Assembly: GCA_902598425.1 (NCBI GenBank)
Contig: CACKBK010000007.1
Location: 1-50,384 of the forward strand
DNA length: 50,384 bases
Direction of reading: 5' to 3'
Source of the DNA: an uncultured Pelagibacteraceae bacterium
Lineage (GTDB): Bacteria > Pseudomonadota > Alphaproteobacteria > Pelagibacterales > Pelagibacteraceae
Below the pieces are notes generated by a model, which saw only the letters and a program-made list of their open reading frames with translations, was not told the origin of the DNA and searched no databases. The position numbers and the translations under genes were made by a program. This document shows, piece by piece, positions 25,545-31,786 of this stretch (position 1 is its first letter; each line of letters begins with the position of its first letter).

Positions 25545-25865
25545 TTACTTTGGTAACTTAGTTGCCCCAGTTTCTTGGTATACAACTTTACCATCCTTAA
25601 ATTTATAATAAGACATAACCGCTTCTTTATTACCATCTTTGAAAGTTACATATGCGTGTTCAAATCCAACTTCATCATTTTCAAAAAGAACTCTCACTTT
25701 TTCTTTTTGAATATCTTTCATACCAAGCCATTTAATAACATCTGATTTTCCCAGTTTTTTACCAGATGCATGCATTAAAAATTGATAATCATCATGTATT
25801 AATTGATCAGCTGCAGAAGTATCTCCATCATTTATTATTTTTGACATTTTTTCTATTATAGACAT
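25545..25865 (-). CDS. NTF2-like small protein
   Basis: A 106-residue alpha+beta protein with the cone-shaped NTF2-like pattern: two N-terminal helices, the DDYQFLMHASGKKLGKSDVIKWLG segment, then strands ending YYKFKDGKVVYQETG. The NTF2 superfamily contains enzymes and ligand-binding domains, so no reaction can be assigned. It carries an AAAGGA Shine-Dalgarno just before the ATG. It lies within a same-strand run with DUF1330, a SnoaL-like protein and a TPR protein, gaps of 7-35 bases. Confidence 0.72.
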   Translation of the reverse strand: MSIIEKMSKIINDGDTSAADQLIHDDYQFLMHASGKKLGKSDVIKWLGMKDIQKEKVRVLFENDEVGFEHAYVTFKDGNKEAVMSYYKFKDGKVVYQETGATKLPK

Positions 25866-25875
25866 ATTTTTTCCT

Positions 25876-26163
25876 TTATATTCCTTTTACTATTATTAAA
25901 TTTCCCTCAGCATTATCTAAACGCATTTGTTTGATAGGTTTATATTCATCCGAGGTGTACCATTTCAAAGCTATTTCATAGCTTGGAAATTCTATTATTA
26001 CGTTTCTTGAAAAATCCCATTTACCCTCTTTAATTTGAAAATCTCCAGCTCTCACTAAATATTTACCACCAAAGTTCTTTATTGTTTGTGGGACCTTCTC
26101 AGCATATGCTCTGAAACCTTCTTTATGTTTCACATTAATCTGGGCAATAACATATGCAGGCAT
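25876..26163 (-). CDS. DUF1330-family protein
   Basis: A 95-residue protein of the DUF1330 ferredoxin-like fold. The family is recognised by the start PAYVIAQINVKHKEGFRAYAEKVP, the GGKYLVRAGD strand, and the FSRNVIIEFPSYEIALKWYTSDEY block. The function of DUF1330 is unknown; its fold is shared with dimeric alpha/beta barrel enzymes such as antibiotic biosynthesis monooxygenases. No obvious Shine-Dalgarno. It is the middle gene of the small-protein series at 24983-27288. Confidence 0.85.
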   Translation of the reverse strand: MPAYVIAQINVKHKEGFRAYAEKVPQTIKNFGGKYLVRAGDFQIKEGKWDFSRNVIIEFPSYEIALKWYTSDEYKPIKQMRLDNAEGNLIIVKGI

Positions 26164-26198
26164 TGCTTTCTATTTTAACCTTTACCTTCTATTATGAT

Positions 26199-26492
26199 TT
26201 ATGATCTCATTTTATTGAAATCCATGATTTGATCAATCACCTGATGTTTATGTGGCTCATAAAAATCATTCATTGGTCCTAGTTGCTCATTAATTGCTTC
26301 TTCACTCTCAGCTTTCCAGTGACAAAACATAATTAAATCGTCCCCAGGAGAAACAAATGATGATTGACAAACCGCTTTTGGACCAGTTGTAGATTTAACA
26401 ATATCTTCAGGCTTCATTGATGCCATAGTTTCTTGCATTTTTTTTTTCATCTCTACTGATTTAAACTTATGCGTTGTTAAGTAATCTTTCAT
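26199..26492 (-). CDS. small protein of unknown function, probable alpha/beta barrel
   Basis: A 97-residue protein. I do not recognise a named family. The pattern, an N-terminal helix rich in Lys/Met, then strands (KAVCQSSFVSP, DLIMFCHWKA) and a helix (SEEAINEQLGPMNDFYEPH), fits the ferredoxin-like fold used by dimeric alpha/beta barrels, like its neighbour DUF1330. Two cysteines are present. A GAGAGGA Shine-Dalgarno precedes the start. It lies 35 bases upstream of the DUF1330 gene and 21 bases after the SnoaL-like gene on the same strand. Confidence 0.65.
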   Translation of the reverse strand: MKDYLTTHKFKSVEMKKKMQETMASMKPEDIVKSTTGPKAVCQSSFVSPGDDLIMFCHWKAESEEAINEQLGPMNDFYEPHKHQVIDQIMDFNKMRS

Positions 26493-28567: not shown

Positions 28568-29569
28568 TTATATCCAATTTGGATACGGTAAACCTTTTTC
28601 TTGAAGGAATTTTTTATTGAATAATTTACTGTTATATTTATCACTCTTGTCGCAGAGTATCGTTACGATTGTTTTTCCTGGTCCTAATTCTTTTCCTAAT
28701 CTTATAGCACCTGCAATATTTACACCGCAACTAGTCCCTAAACTTAATCCTTCATTTTGAATAAGATCAAACAAAACTGGTAAAGATTCATTATCACTGA
28801 TAGAAAATGCACCATCGATCTTTGCTTCTGCGAAATTAGCAGTCACTCTACTTGAACCAATCCCCTCAGTAATAGAATTGCCCTCACTTTTTAACTCACC
28901 ATTATTTATGTAATTACAAAGCGATGAACCTGCTGGATCAGAAAGATAAATTTTAATATCTTTATTTTTTTCTTTTAAGTAACTACTAACACCAGCAATG
29001 GTTCCTCCAGTTCCGGAGGCACAAATGAATGCATCTACTTTACCATCTGTTTGATCATAAATTTCGGGACCTGTAGTTTCGTAATGTCCTTTTAAATTTG
29101 CAGTGTTATCGAATTGATTTGCCCAAACAACACCATGATTATTTGAACTTCTTAACTCATCAGCTAATCTTCCAGCAACTTTGACATAATTGCCGTCATC
29201 TTTATATGGTTTAGGAGGAACTAATCTTAAATCGGCACCAATATTTTTCAGCATATCTTTTTTTTCTTGTGTTTGGTTGTCATTCATTACTATTACAGTT
29301 TTGTAACCGATTGAGTTTCCAATCAAACAAAGTCCGATACCAGTGTTCCCTGCAGTTCCTTCAACAATTGTTCCACCCTTAGAAATTAATTTTTTTTCCT
29401 CTGCATCTCTTATTAATGCAAGTGCAGCTCTATCTTTTACTGAACCTCCAGGATTTAAATATTCTGCTTTACCATATATGTTACACCCTGTTATCTCGGA
29501 AGCAGCTTTAAGTTTAACCAATGGTGTATTTCCAATACCATCAATAAAATTATTTTGAGAATTCTTCAT
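28568..29569 (-). CDS. cysK: Cysteine synthase (PLP-dependent, CysK/CBS family)
   Basis: A 333-residue beta-family PLP enzyme that forms cysteine from O-acetylserine and sulfide. The PLP lysine is Lys45 in NPGGSVKDRAA. The phosphate-binding loop appears as GTAGNTGIGL and the C-terminal cofactor contact as GLSLGTSCGVN. The gene follows cysE directly with no gap, the classical pair for cysteine synthesis. The GTAGNTG loop and C-terminal LQEKGLPYPNW extension also occur in CBS-like paralogues, so a substrate other than O-acetylserine cannot be excluded. Confidence 0.92.
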   Translation of the reverse strand: MKNSQNNFIDGIGNTPLVKLKAASEITGCNIYGKAEYLNPGGSVKDRAALALIRDAEEKKLISKGGTIVEGTAGNTGIGLCLIGNSIGYKTVIVMNDNQTQEKKDMLKNIGADLRLVPPKPYKDDGNYVKVAGRLADELRSSNNHGVVWANQFDNTANLKGHYETTGPEIYDQTDGKVDAFICASGTGGTIAGVSSYLKEKNKDIKIYLSDPAGSSLCNYINNGELKSEGNSITEGIGSSRVTANFAEAKIDGAFSISDNESLPVLFDLIQNEGLSLGTSCGVNIAGAIRLGKELGPGKTIVTILCDKSDKYNSKLFNKKFLQEKGLPYPNWI

Positions 29570-30151
29570 TTAATTTTTATCACTTTGTTCAGTAATACCA
29601 TAAGGTTTAAATGTTTCATCATCAACTGAACTCTCACCAACATTCTTAGCTGGAATTCCAACCATGATTGCGTTTTCAGGAACATTTTTAGTAACAACAG
29701 CATTAGCACCAATCTTTGCATTTTTCCCAATAACTACTGGACCTAATATCTGTGCACCAGAACCAACAACAACATTATTCATTAAAGTAGGATGTCTTTT
29801 TGTATTTCTTTGATCTTCCGAATTAATGCTTGGAGAAATTCCACCAAGTGTAACCATATGATAGATTGTAACATTATCCCCAATATCAGAAGTTTCACCT
29901 ATTACAACACCCATACCATGATCAATGAAAAGATTTTTTCCTATTTTTGCTCTTGGATGAATTTCTATACCAGTTAAAAATCTTGAAAACTGAGAAATAA
30001 TTCTTGCTATCAAATCAAATTTTGCAATTGAAAAAAAATTTGCAATTTTATGAAAGAATACAGCCTTTACTCCTGGATACGTTAAAATAACATACAGCTT
30101 AGACTTCGCAGCAGGGTCTCTCTTAATAATAGATTCTAAAAAATCATTCAT
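29570..30151 (-). CDS. cysE: Serine O-acetyltransferase
   Basis: A 193-residue, short-form (EpsC-like) serine acetyltransferase. The N-terminal helical part contains [29 protein letters not shown], and the rest is left-handed beta-helix hexapeptide repeats ([55 protein letters not shown]). The active-site His is in [13 protein letters not shown]. It makes O-acetylserine from serine and acetyl-CoA. The short form lacks the long N-terminal domain of enteric CysE. It lies 27 bases downstream of the Cys-rich peptide gene on the same strand and abuts cysK. Confidence 0.95.
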
Positions 30152-30178: not shown

Positions 30179-30298
30179 CTACTTATTGCAACAACAAGAA
30201 GTTTCTTCAGGTTCACATCGACAAACTATTGTGCCATCACATCTGCATTTATCGTTCAGACAGTTTGAGCATTTGCATTTTAAATTTTCGCAAGGCAT
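30179..30298 (-). CDS. 39-residue Cys-rich metallothionein-like peptide
   Basis: A short open frame in the gap between the persulfide dioxygenase-like gene and cysE. It encodes 39 residues with 11 cysteines at positions 3, 8, 10, 13, 18, 20, 26, 28, 35, 36 and 37. The spacing includes Cys-x-Cys at 8/10, 18/20 and 26/28, Cys-x-x-Cys at 10/13, and a terminal Cys-Cys-Cys before the last two residues. Lys and Asp/Glu make up most of the rest and there is no signal peptide, so it is cytosolic. This is the profile of a metallothionein or metal-thiolate buffer. It is not a textbook match to SmtA/BmtA. A candidate promoter at 30305-30332 serves it, and cysE follows 27 bases later. Confidence 0.7.
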   Translation of the reverse strand: MPCENLKCKCSNCLNDKCRCDGTIVCRCEPEETSCCCNK

Positions 30299-30304
30299 GA
30301 AGGA

Positions 30305-30332
30305 TATATAATTATTCAATACAAGAATTCAA
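30305..30332 (-). promoter_or_regulatory. candidate sigma-70 promoter for the Cys-rich peptide and cysEK
   Basis: On the minus strand TTGAAT, a 16-base spacer, then TATATA, ending 7 bases before the ATG of the 39-residue peptide. Transcription starting 6-7 bases later would give a near-leaderless message for the peptide. The region is AT-rich so chance matches are possible. Confidence 0.4.
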
Positions 30333-30351
30333 TACTTAAATTGACGCTAAG

Positions 30352-31044
30352 CTAAATCTGATCTGAAGTTAAACCTTTAACATTTGCAGGAACCGCTATA
30401 TCCATCATTTTTGGATTAGCTAGATTTAAATTGTTCATGATTTCTATATATTGATCAACAGAATCAACTTGTAATCTTGGGTTATTTTTTAGCTCGCTAC
30501 CAATCGTAGATGAGGTCTTACCATTATAGTCATGAGCAGGTAATACAATTGTATTTTCAGGTAACTTTAGAAGTTTGTTAAAAAGAGAGTCGTACTGATC
30601 TTTTGCGCTTCCATTTTGAAAATCTGTTCTGCCAGTTCCATTAATTAATAATGTATCGCCAGTAAAAACTCTATCATTCATAAGATAACTGTAAGAGCAG
30701 TCAGTATGACCAGGAGTATAAATTACTTTAAGTTCAATATTATCAATTTTAATTTTATCATCCTCCTTGACATGTAAATCAACAACTTCTGATTTTGATT
30801 TTTCACCCATGATCTTTGTACAATTAGTTTTTTTACTTAGTTCATTTAAGCCAGTAACATGATCAGCATGAATATGTGTATCAATTACTTTTACTAACTT
30901 TAAATCTAACTCATTCAAAACATTTAGATATTTATTTGTATGTTCAATTACTGGATCTATTATTAATGCTTCACGTCCTTTATCACTTGCAAGGATGTAC
31001 GTGTAGGTTGAAGATTTATCATCAAATAATTGTTTAAATATCAT
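30352..31044 (-). CDS. ETHE1-like metallo-beta-lactamase-fold persulfide dioxygenase
   Basis: A 230-residue MBL-fold protein, started at 31044 (MIFKQLFDDKSS) because an in-frame ATG at 31071 adds only a hydrophobic stub and overlaps the promoter. Metal motif: THIHADHVTGL, then TPGHTDCSYSY, then the final His in VLPAHDYNG. The GRTDFQNGS segment and the SSTYTYILA start are specific to the ETHE1 persulfide dioxygenase subfamily, which oxidises glutathione persulfide to sulfite with one iron. No rhodanese domain is attached. Its place beside cysE-cysK and a Cys-rich peptide suits a role in sulfur handling. Divergent from a peroxiredoxin. Confidence 0.87.
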   Translation of the reverse strand: MIFKQLFDDKSSTYTYILASDKGREALIIDPVIEHTNKYLNVLNELDLKLVKVIDTHIHADHVTGLNELSKKTNCTKIMGEKSKSEVVDLHVKEDDKIKIDNIELKVIYTPGHTDCSYSYLMNDRVFTGDTLLINGTGRTDFQNGSAKDQYDSLFNKLLKLPENTIVLPAHDYNGKTSSTIGSELKNNPRLQVDSVDQYIEIMNNLNLANPKMMDIAVPANVKGLTSDQI

Positions 31045-31052
31045 ATCTAACA

Positions 31053-31081
31053 ATATTATTAAAAATTGCATGATTATTCAA
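31053..31081 (-). promoter_or_regulatory. promoter for the ETHE1-like gene
   Basis: On the minus strand TTGAAT, a 17-base spacer, then TAATAT, a good sigma-70 match, 8 bases before the ATG at 31044. It overlaps the -35 box of the divergent peroxiredoxin promoter (31066-31071), so polymerase may not use both at once. Confidence 0.5.
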
Positions 31082-31123: not shown

Positions 31124-31786
31124 ATGACTTTAAAAATAAATAGTTTGGCTCCAGATTTTACTGCTGAAACGTCTGAGGGTAAATTATCTTTTCATGAATG
31201 GTTAGGTGATAGCTGGGGTGTATTATTTTCTCACCCAAAAGATTTTACACCTGTCTGTACAACAGAATTAGGTGCTTTAGCTAAAATGAAACCAGAGTTT
31301 GAAAAAAGAAATGTTAAGGTAATGGGGCTAAGTGTAGATCCAGTATCTGATCATGTTAAATGGTTAGAAGATATTAAGGATGTGTGTGGTTTAAAACCAA
31401 ATTATCCAATTGTTGCTGATGAAAAATTAGAAGTAGCAAAACTTTACAATATGTTAGAAGGTGATGCGGGAACAACATCTATGGGAAGAACAGCTGTAGA
31501 CAATGAAACAGTAAGAACCGTCTACATTGTAAGACCAGATAAAAGAATTGGATTATTCTTAACCTATCCAATGACTACAGGAAGGAACTTTAAGGAAATT
31601 TTAAGAACAATCGACTCTATGCAGAGAACTGCAAAACACAAAATTGCTACACCTGCAGATTGGCAACCAGGAGATGATGTTATTATAGTTCCCAAAGTTA
31701 CAAACGAGGAAGCTAAAAAGATCTATCCAGATGGATGGGAAACCGTAAAACCATATTTACGAAAAGTTCCAGATCCAAATAAATAA
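31124..31786 (+). CDS. 1-Cys peroxiredoxin (Prx6 subfamily)
   Basis: A 220-residue thiol peroxidase. The peroxidatic residue is Cys45 in HPKDFTPVCTTELGAL, and the Prx6-type C-terminal arm includes IDSMQRTAKHKIATPADWQPGDDVIIVP. It reduces hydrogen peroxide and organic or lipid peroxides in the cytoplasm. The partner electron donor cannot be read; no resolving Cys of the 2-Cys type is evident. Expression looks strong: perfect -10, AGGAGG Shine-Dalgarno and an efficient terminator right after the stop. It is divergent from the persulfide dioxygenase-like gene, with interleaved promoters. Confidence 0.95.
   Translation: MTLKINSLAPDFTAETSEGKLSFHEWLGDSWGVLFSHPKDFTPVCTTELGALAKMKPEFEKRNVKVMGLSVDPVSDHVKWLEDIKDVCGLKPNYPIVADEKLEVAKLYNMLEGDAGTTSMGRTAVDNETVRTVYIVRPDKRIGLFLTYPMTTGRNFKEILRTIDSMQRTAKHKIATPADWQPGDDVIIVPKVTNEEAKKIYPDGWETVKPYLRKVPDPNK

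Follow-up and report, generated by a model that had tools for sequence, protein, structure and literature searches.

Small cysteine-rich peptides with CxC motifs are represented in bacteria by the metallothioneins SmtA and BmtA (Pfam PF02069, Metallothio_Pro). Metallothioneins in the broad sense are small, contain about 25-33% cysteine with many CxC or CC motifs and few or no aromatic residues, and bind d10 metals through thiolates. Cysteine-rich short ORFs are also found in a regulatory setting. Polycysteine leader ORFs have been predicted upstream of cys operons in Mycobacterium and P. acnes and upstream of cbs in B. longum (PMC1262725; PMC9031893), without a conserved hairpin that could serve as a terminator (PMC1262725), and those of mycobacteria are reported to be cysteine-responsive leaderless attenuators (Canestrari et al. 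2020; PMC9031893; PMC13236596). In the classical trp and his attenuators, a leader ORF likewise carries a run of codons for the regulated amino acid, with RNA hairpins near its stop codon. Here, we describe a short gene of SAR11 bacteria that can be compared with each of these systems. Like SmtA and BmtA, its product is small, rich in cysteine and CxC motifs and, by eye, free of a signal-like hydrophobic stretch; however, no Pfam profile matches it, the peptide studied has no His and a CCC end, and the family spans 36-44 aa against a 51-position model. Like the mycobacterial ORFs, it is a short ORF, predicted to be leaderless, with consecutive Cys codons directly upstream of cysteine genes; the differences are that 11 or more cysteines are spread in conserved CxC spacing under protein-level selection, and that the CCC codons sit in a hairpin under RNA-level selection. 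In contrast to the trp and his attenuators, there is no GC-rich terminator with a uniform U tract, competing structures have not been demonstrated, the direction of control is not known and the leader ORF looks functional as a protein. ETHE1 and the bacterial persulfide dioxygenases (4chl, 4ysb) are relevant only through the upstream neighbour, which belongs to this family, and its adjacency is not universal.

The gene lies in a 50,384-nt stretch of DNA from an uncultured Pelagibacteraceae bacterium (contig CACKBK010000007.1, positions 1 to 50,384), hereafter the window. An earlier note, made from the sequence alone, had described at 30179-30298 a 39-residue frame with 11 cysteines, three CxC pairs and a terminal Cys triplet, lying between an ETHE1-like persulfide dioxygenase and cysE-cysK, and had proposed a metal-thiolate or persulfide buffer tied to cysteine supply. 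The features of the locus are as follows.

30179..30298, minus strand: 39-aa metallothionein-like ORF with its stop codon (ATG at 30298, TAG at 30181-30179)
30305..30310, minus strand: -10 box TATATA, at -12..-7 relative to the A of the ATG
30327..30332, minus strand: -35 box TTGAAT, at -34..-29 relative to the A of the ATG
30181..30202, minus strand: RNA hairpin H1, in which the Cys-triplet codons pair with the last codons and the stop codon; in the window's own copy an interrupted 8-pair helix
30161..30179, minus strand: second hairpin H2 (GUUUUUU-AAAUC-AAAAAAC) between the stop codon and cysE, with weaker support
29570..30151, minus strand: cysE, serine O-acetyltransferase (NCBIfam EpsC/cysE), starting 27 nt after the peptide's stop
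28568..29569, minus strand: cysK, cysteine synthase A
30352..31071, minus strand: MBL-fold, ETHE1-like persulfide dioxygenase (SDO), the upstream neighbour
31124..31786, plus strand: 1-Cys peroxiredoxin, divergent from SDO

The observation made in the earlier note is confirmed. Translation of the minus strand, which the note did not name, gives MPCENLKCKCSNCLNDKCRCDGTIVCRCEPEETSCCCNK, whereas the plus strand gives nothing of the kind. The 11 Cys in 39 residues (28%), the three CxC pairs (8/10, 18/20, 26/28) and the CCC triplet (35-37) are as described, although the triplet is followed by Asn-Lys and is therefore near-terminal. A TTG codon would extend the frame to 46 aa, but homologues and the promoter both point to the ATG. 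The neighbours had also been identified correctly; SDO matches the solved structures 4chl (ETHE1, E 7.2e-54) and, best of all, 4ysb (E 1.9e-69), which is named only a metallo-beta-lactamase family protein. Among 604 ATG-started ORFs of 30-80 aa in 350 kb of this genome (the window plus 15 stretches of 20 kb), the next richest has 17% Cys, and about 1e-6 such ORFs are expected from the mean Cys content.

We next examined the distribution of the gene; a search of SAR11 genomes had been proposed in the earlier note. The counts include the window's own genome and are profile matches; they are lower bounds, as the 44-aa form in one genome (G025) was missed by the first profile. The single peptide matches in 10 of 101 genomes (2 of 22 high-quality ones). 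A 10-row profile matches in 80 of 399 genomes of the genus at E 0.01 (8 of 57 that are at least 90% complete), of which one (G307) proved to be a partial chance hit where no such ORF was found. In the class it matches in 2 of 385 genomes, namely the window's own and one chance hit (G650), which by eye is another reading frame of a long gene. A 30-row profile matches in 9 of 197 genomes in the family, including one genome each of three other genera, and in 27 of 247 in the order (16 of 149 high-quality genomes, all of the window's genus). In a collection of named genomes, 268 stretches matched the pattern and 72 were confirmed, all in records titled Pelagibacteraceae, Pelagibacterales or Ca. 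Pelagibacter. The single-contig genomes listed in the class and family searches (G012, G122, G338, G425, G734, G843, G859, and G536 and G812 of another genus) have no match, and none of them can serve as a ready model.

After removal of identical CDS-plus-flank copies, 102 distinct loci remain, with 99 distinct CDSs and 83 distinct peptides. These come from overlapping collections and are not 102 independent species, and the ORF finder required at least 8 Cys, which would hide members that had lost many. By length, the 99 CDSs are 36 aa (17), 37 (11), 38 (17), 39 (50), 40 (2), 43 (1, locus L172) and 44 (1, locus L077). The main form reads MACxNxKCxCxNCxxDxCxCxxxxxCxCxPExxxCCCN, and the 36-aa form MACNNSHCKCKNCSCDRCVCKNCDCKPSSENCCCNK. 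Odd ends occur in two loci: YCCYCC in L049, and in L172 a Lys/Asn-rich tail with no hairpin (energy 0.0). Two outcomes had been named in advance as counting against the gene, a Ka/Ks near 1 and loss of the cysteines in related genomes, and neither was seen where the frame was found. In the 80 CDSs of 37-40 aa, 876 of 880 Cys cells are kept while both TGT and TGC occur at every site, and median dN/dS is 0.21 over 1,097 usable pairs, pairs with near-zero or saturated pS having been dropped. Among non-Cys residues, N5 is kept in 80/80, K7 in 77/80, N12 in 76/80 and P30 in 75/80. For codons 2-33 alone, outside the RNA hairpin, median dN/dS is 0.245 (1,103 of 3,160 pairs used), and 637 of 640 Cys cells are kept at the eight sites upstream of the hairpin. 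The 36-aa class keeps 203 of 204, the exception being L070, which has lost C3. Selection is therefore on the protein.

In composition the window peptide falls within the broad metallothionein class, with no F, W or Y, although some members have Tyr; there are no expression or metal data, and metal binding was not assayed. The comparison with Pfam metallothionein models, which the earlier note had suggested, gave no match: none of 30 members matches any Pfam model at E 1, and none of the 30 matches any NCBIfam model at E 1. PF02069 is over cut-off in 0 of 101 relatives, while the same search gave signals in 3 of 14 control genomes, Synechococcus elongatus among them, and was over cut-off in one of the 14. 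One PF02069 hit, in genome G046, is below cut-off (16.5 bits), has two stops inside and by eye overlaps a long gene. Comparison with solved structures gave only chance-level matches, the best being mucin-5B at E 0.19 and the rest LDL-receptor-type modules. An AlphaFold model built with the 30-row alignment was uninformative (pLDDT 57.6, pTM 0.25), so no fold search was run.

Synteny with cysE, also raised beforehand as a test, holds in 101 of 102 loci. The order is SDO > peptide > cysE in 99 of 102, with SDO the immediate upstream gene in 100. Two loci (L131, and L194 of another genus) have peptide > cysE without SDO adjacent. One locus (L050; genome G243, contig C5, 12800-20800) has SDO > peptide, but cysE and cysK are missing from its 8-kb stretch, and the following small genes resemble, by eye, those at window 25545-26492; only weak (29-43% identical) cysE matches were found elsewhere in that 66%-complete genome, in which cysK was not sought genome-wide. 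The peptide is intact in all three. We re-examined 24 genomes that had had no profile match, six of them at least 90% complete. Of the 14 with a clear cysE, one carries the diverged 44-aa form (L077), five have SDO abutting cysE with no peptide (L076, L078-L081), and eight have neither SDO within the flank examined (1.5 kb; 0.65 kb in L083) nor the peptide. Absence of the frame under the same synteny had likewise been named as a possible refutation, and the five loci indicate that the gene is dispensable in some lineages. In the genomes of L082-L089, cysE is preceded not by prx-SDO-peptide but mostly by a VOC-like gene (by eye) and, in 6 of 8, a lysE-type exporter, their SDO lying elsewhere at 61-67% identity. 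An SDO of 61% identity or more exists in 18 of 18 genomes of the genus tested (5 with the peptide, 13 without), whereas the two genomes of another genus have only a 35%-identical match. No such peptide lies beside SDO in the eight loci L100-L107, three of which show unrelated Cys-containing frames. A cysE tree of 103 rows, whose bootstrap had not fully settled, places peptide-bearing loci on both sides of its midpoint split, and the peptide-less group (11 rows) needs three changes, of which well-supported branches force only one. The simplest reading is an old gene lost several times.

Two further features had not been seen in the earlier note. The first is a promoter. Aligned on the ATG, the 83 non-redundant peptides show TTG at -34..-32 and TATAT at -12..-8, with a variable spacer and no Shine-Dalgarno signal by eye; these are the canonical positions of a sigma70 promoter whose start is the A of the ATG. 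Both elements are in place in 72 of 83 (TATA alone in 81), against 0 of 313 other genes of this genome taken at their first ATG and 7 of 11,018 ATG triplets, this gene's own among the 7. The 11 peptides without the full motif (10 of the 47 39-aa peptides and the 44-aa one) were kept in the denominator; the sequences are related, and gene starts in the control were called naively. The spacing predicts a leaderless mRNA that begins with this ORF, but no RNA data were examined and the point is left undecided. A semi-conserved GCGRCAAATTT-like stretch lies just upstream of the -35 box in many relatives (window 30338-30348, minus strand, -50..-40 of the ATG), as noted by eye and in base counts, and could be an UP element or regulator site. 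In L078-L081, which lack the peptide, a TATATA box sits 8 nt before the cysE ATG.

The second feature is the hairpin H1. In the 39-aa class, the last codons ([S/T]-C-C-C-N-[N/K/S]-stop) fold on themselves, for example UAGUUGUUG-UUG-UAACAACUA in locus L021. On 39 distinct 27-nt ends, the nine-pair helix pairs in 91.2% of cells, with 18 double-change cells (shuffled mean 4.8, 0 of 500). Its covariation score is 0.295 against 0.210 in shuffles (0 of 500 as high), and all slid versions are lower; the best pair has G-C 18, C-G 9, A-U 1 and U-A 1. Nevertheless, two stricter counts do not stand out (pairs with a double change 3 vs 2.1, 133 of 500; further pair types 12 vs 10.2, 43 of 500), and related sequences can exceed shuffles without structure. 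Codon choice is a separate line of evidence. Asn39 is AAC in 16 of 17 and Asn38 in 28 of 37, against 18% AAC in the genome, 14 of 84 in the last two codons of control genes and 68 of 208 at other Asn of the same CDSs, and Lys39 is AAG in 12 of 22 against 13%. TAG stops are used in 52 of 102 peptide loci against 41 of 279 control genes, perhaps because the stop is part of the hairpin. Against a null that keeps the protein, the 3' end is more stable (mean z -2.6 on 37 distinct 24-nt ends; -2.3 on 39 distinct 27-nt ends, with a mean of about -6 kcal/mol and 26 at or below -5 kcal/mol), whereas for 316 control genes the mean z is -0.10 and 3.5% reach -5; other segments of the same CDSs give z between -0.09 and -0.77. 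The 36-aa class is intermediate (z -1.8) and the 37- and 38-aa classes are weak (-0.9, -0.6), so H1 in this form is not universal. A search of Rfam returned no match in the window.

The second hairpin, H2, is seen after the stop in many folds, with a modest mean z of -1.5 on 69 gaps, and is absent in the 38-aa class (+0.3). A tract of at least 5 T in 8 nt follows the stop in 20 of 35 distinct stretches of the 39-aa class against 64 of 316 control genes. In several folds, the arm of H2 overlaps H1 by eye, which would be attenuator-like; since exclusivity was not tested and shared arms appear in some folds only, these observations do not settle whether the element is a transcription attenuator with a terminator and a competing antiterminator. 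The gap between the peptide's stop and cysE is 25-38 nt in the 75 distinct stretches measured.

We consider the best explanation to be that a short gene for a metal-thiolate peptide, metallothionein-like and most likely buffering Zn or Cu, is the first cistron, and perhaps the regulatory leader, of the cysE-cysK transcript in many Pelagibacteraceae, with a probability of roughly 0.55. The sequences themselves establish that the ORF is conserved under purifying selection at the protein level with nearly invariant cysteines, that it has a sigma70-type promoter placed so that transcription would start at the A of its ATG, that in the 39-aa class its 3' end forms a hairpin kept by compensatory and synonymous change, and that it sits 25-38 nt before cysE. 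We infer, rather than demonstrate, that the mRNA is leaderless; that the peptide binds metal; that its synthesis draws on cysteine, co-transcription with cysE-cysK coupling thiol demand to supply; and that the hairpin made of the CCC codons lets translation of the peptide, slowed when cysteinyl-tRNA is short, set how much transcription or translation reaches cysE. Conservation along the whole peptide, its CxC/CCC composition and its survival without cysE in L050 favour a working metal-thiolate peptide, while the predicted leaderless head position, the CCC codons beside the stop and the RNA-selected hairpin before cysE favour a cis-regulatory role as well; the two are compatible. That the gene is real is near certain, that it heads the cysE transcript is likely and that the peptide binds metal is probable, whereas control of cysE through H1 is somewhat less likely than not. 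The interpretation in the earlier note is thus partly supported: a conserved metallothionein-like peptide tied to cysE and missed by the family libraries holds, but the persulfide link is weak, and the promoter and hairpin raise a cysteine-responsive leader as a serious alternative or second role.

SAR11 bacteria are among the most abundant cells in the sea, and a metagenomic survey of detoxification genes found most such systems scarce or absent in Ca. Pelagibacter ubique (PMC4161860). A metallothionein-like peptide invisible to Pfam and NCBIfam would change that picture for the lineages that carry it, and as the head of the cysteine operon it offers a direct molecular link between metal buffering and reduced-sulfur supply in cells reported to lack assimilatory sulfate reduction (PMC5069961). 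In Ca. P. ubique, cysK and cysE were not upregulated under sulfur stress (PMC5069961); whether that strain carries the gene was not tested. Literature searches on metallothionein in SAR11 or Pelagibacter, and on metallothionein, leader peptides and cysteine biosynthesis, returned nothing whose title or opening of the abstract describes this gene. More tentatively, it may be a dual-function leader gene, in which one short leaderless ORF encodes a metallothionein and its own translation, through a hairpin built from its terminal cysteine codons, reads cysteinyl-tRNA and sets expression of the cysteine-making genes behind it. Metal buffering and cysteine supply would then be wired together in a single 120-nt element, and the leader peptide would be kept both for its codons and for its protein.

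Among the alternatives, the one that survives best, and remains possible, is that H1 is simply a 3'-end element, a weak terminator or stabiliser of the peptide's own mRNA that gives much peptide mRNA and little cysE read-through without any cysteine sensing; this does not exclude a metal-binding peptide. The hairpin overlaps the stop codon, T tracts after the stop are enriched, and H1 is kept in L050, with an A-U pair not seen elsewhere at that position, although no cysE lies downstream. However, H1 is AU-rich and weak, the T tract is not universal, and the hairpin is built on the Cys codons next to a cysteine gene, which fits sensing. It is unlikely, although not excluded, that the ORF is purely a cysteine-responsive leader whose translation speed at Cys codons controls cysE-cysK and whose peptide is waste, as proposed for the mycobacterial ORFs. 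The predicted leaderless position, the consecutive Cys codons next to the stop with cysE close downstream, and H1 favour this view; the response of downstream expression to cysteine was not measured. Against it, the CxC spacing and N5, K7, N12 and P30 are conserved across the whole peptide with free wobble, which a codon sensor does not need, and the peptide persists in L050, though that deletion could be recent. A persulfide or sulfane-sulfur carrier or buffer that hands its sulfur to SDO is very unlikely: the ETHE1-like SDO is almost always adjacent, but the peptide has its own promoter downstream of SDO, L131 and L194 lack the adjacency, 13 of the 18 genus genomes with SDO have no peptide, and the CxC/CCC pattern is typical of metal-thiolate peptides. 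A chance ORF or assembly artefact, conceivable for a short frame in an AT-rich genome, is refuted by its conservation in many genomes, its dN/dS and the expected number of such ORFs.

A phage or mobile origin was also considered and rejected. No relative was confirmed in viral contigs by pattern or by profile, and none was found in phage records by tblastn. At the DNA level, the locus matches ten phage-labelled records (OR844998.1 and nine others) at 72-81% identity over short stretches, and whether these are host DNA or phage-borne cysE was not decided. All of the matches lie inside cysE, none covers the peptide, and eight of the ten are unannotated.
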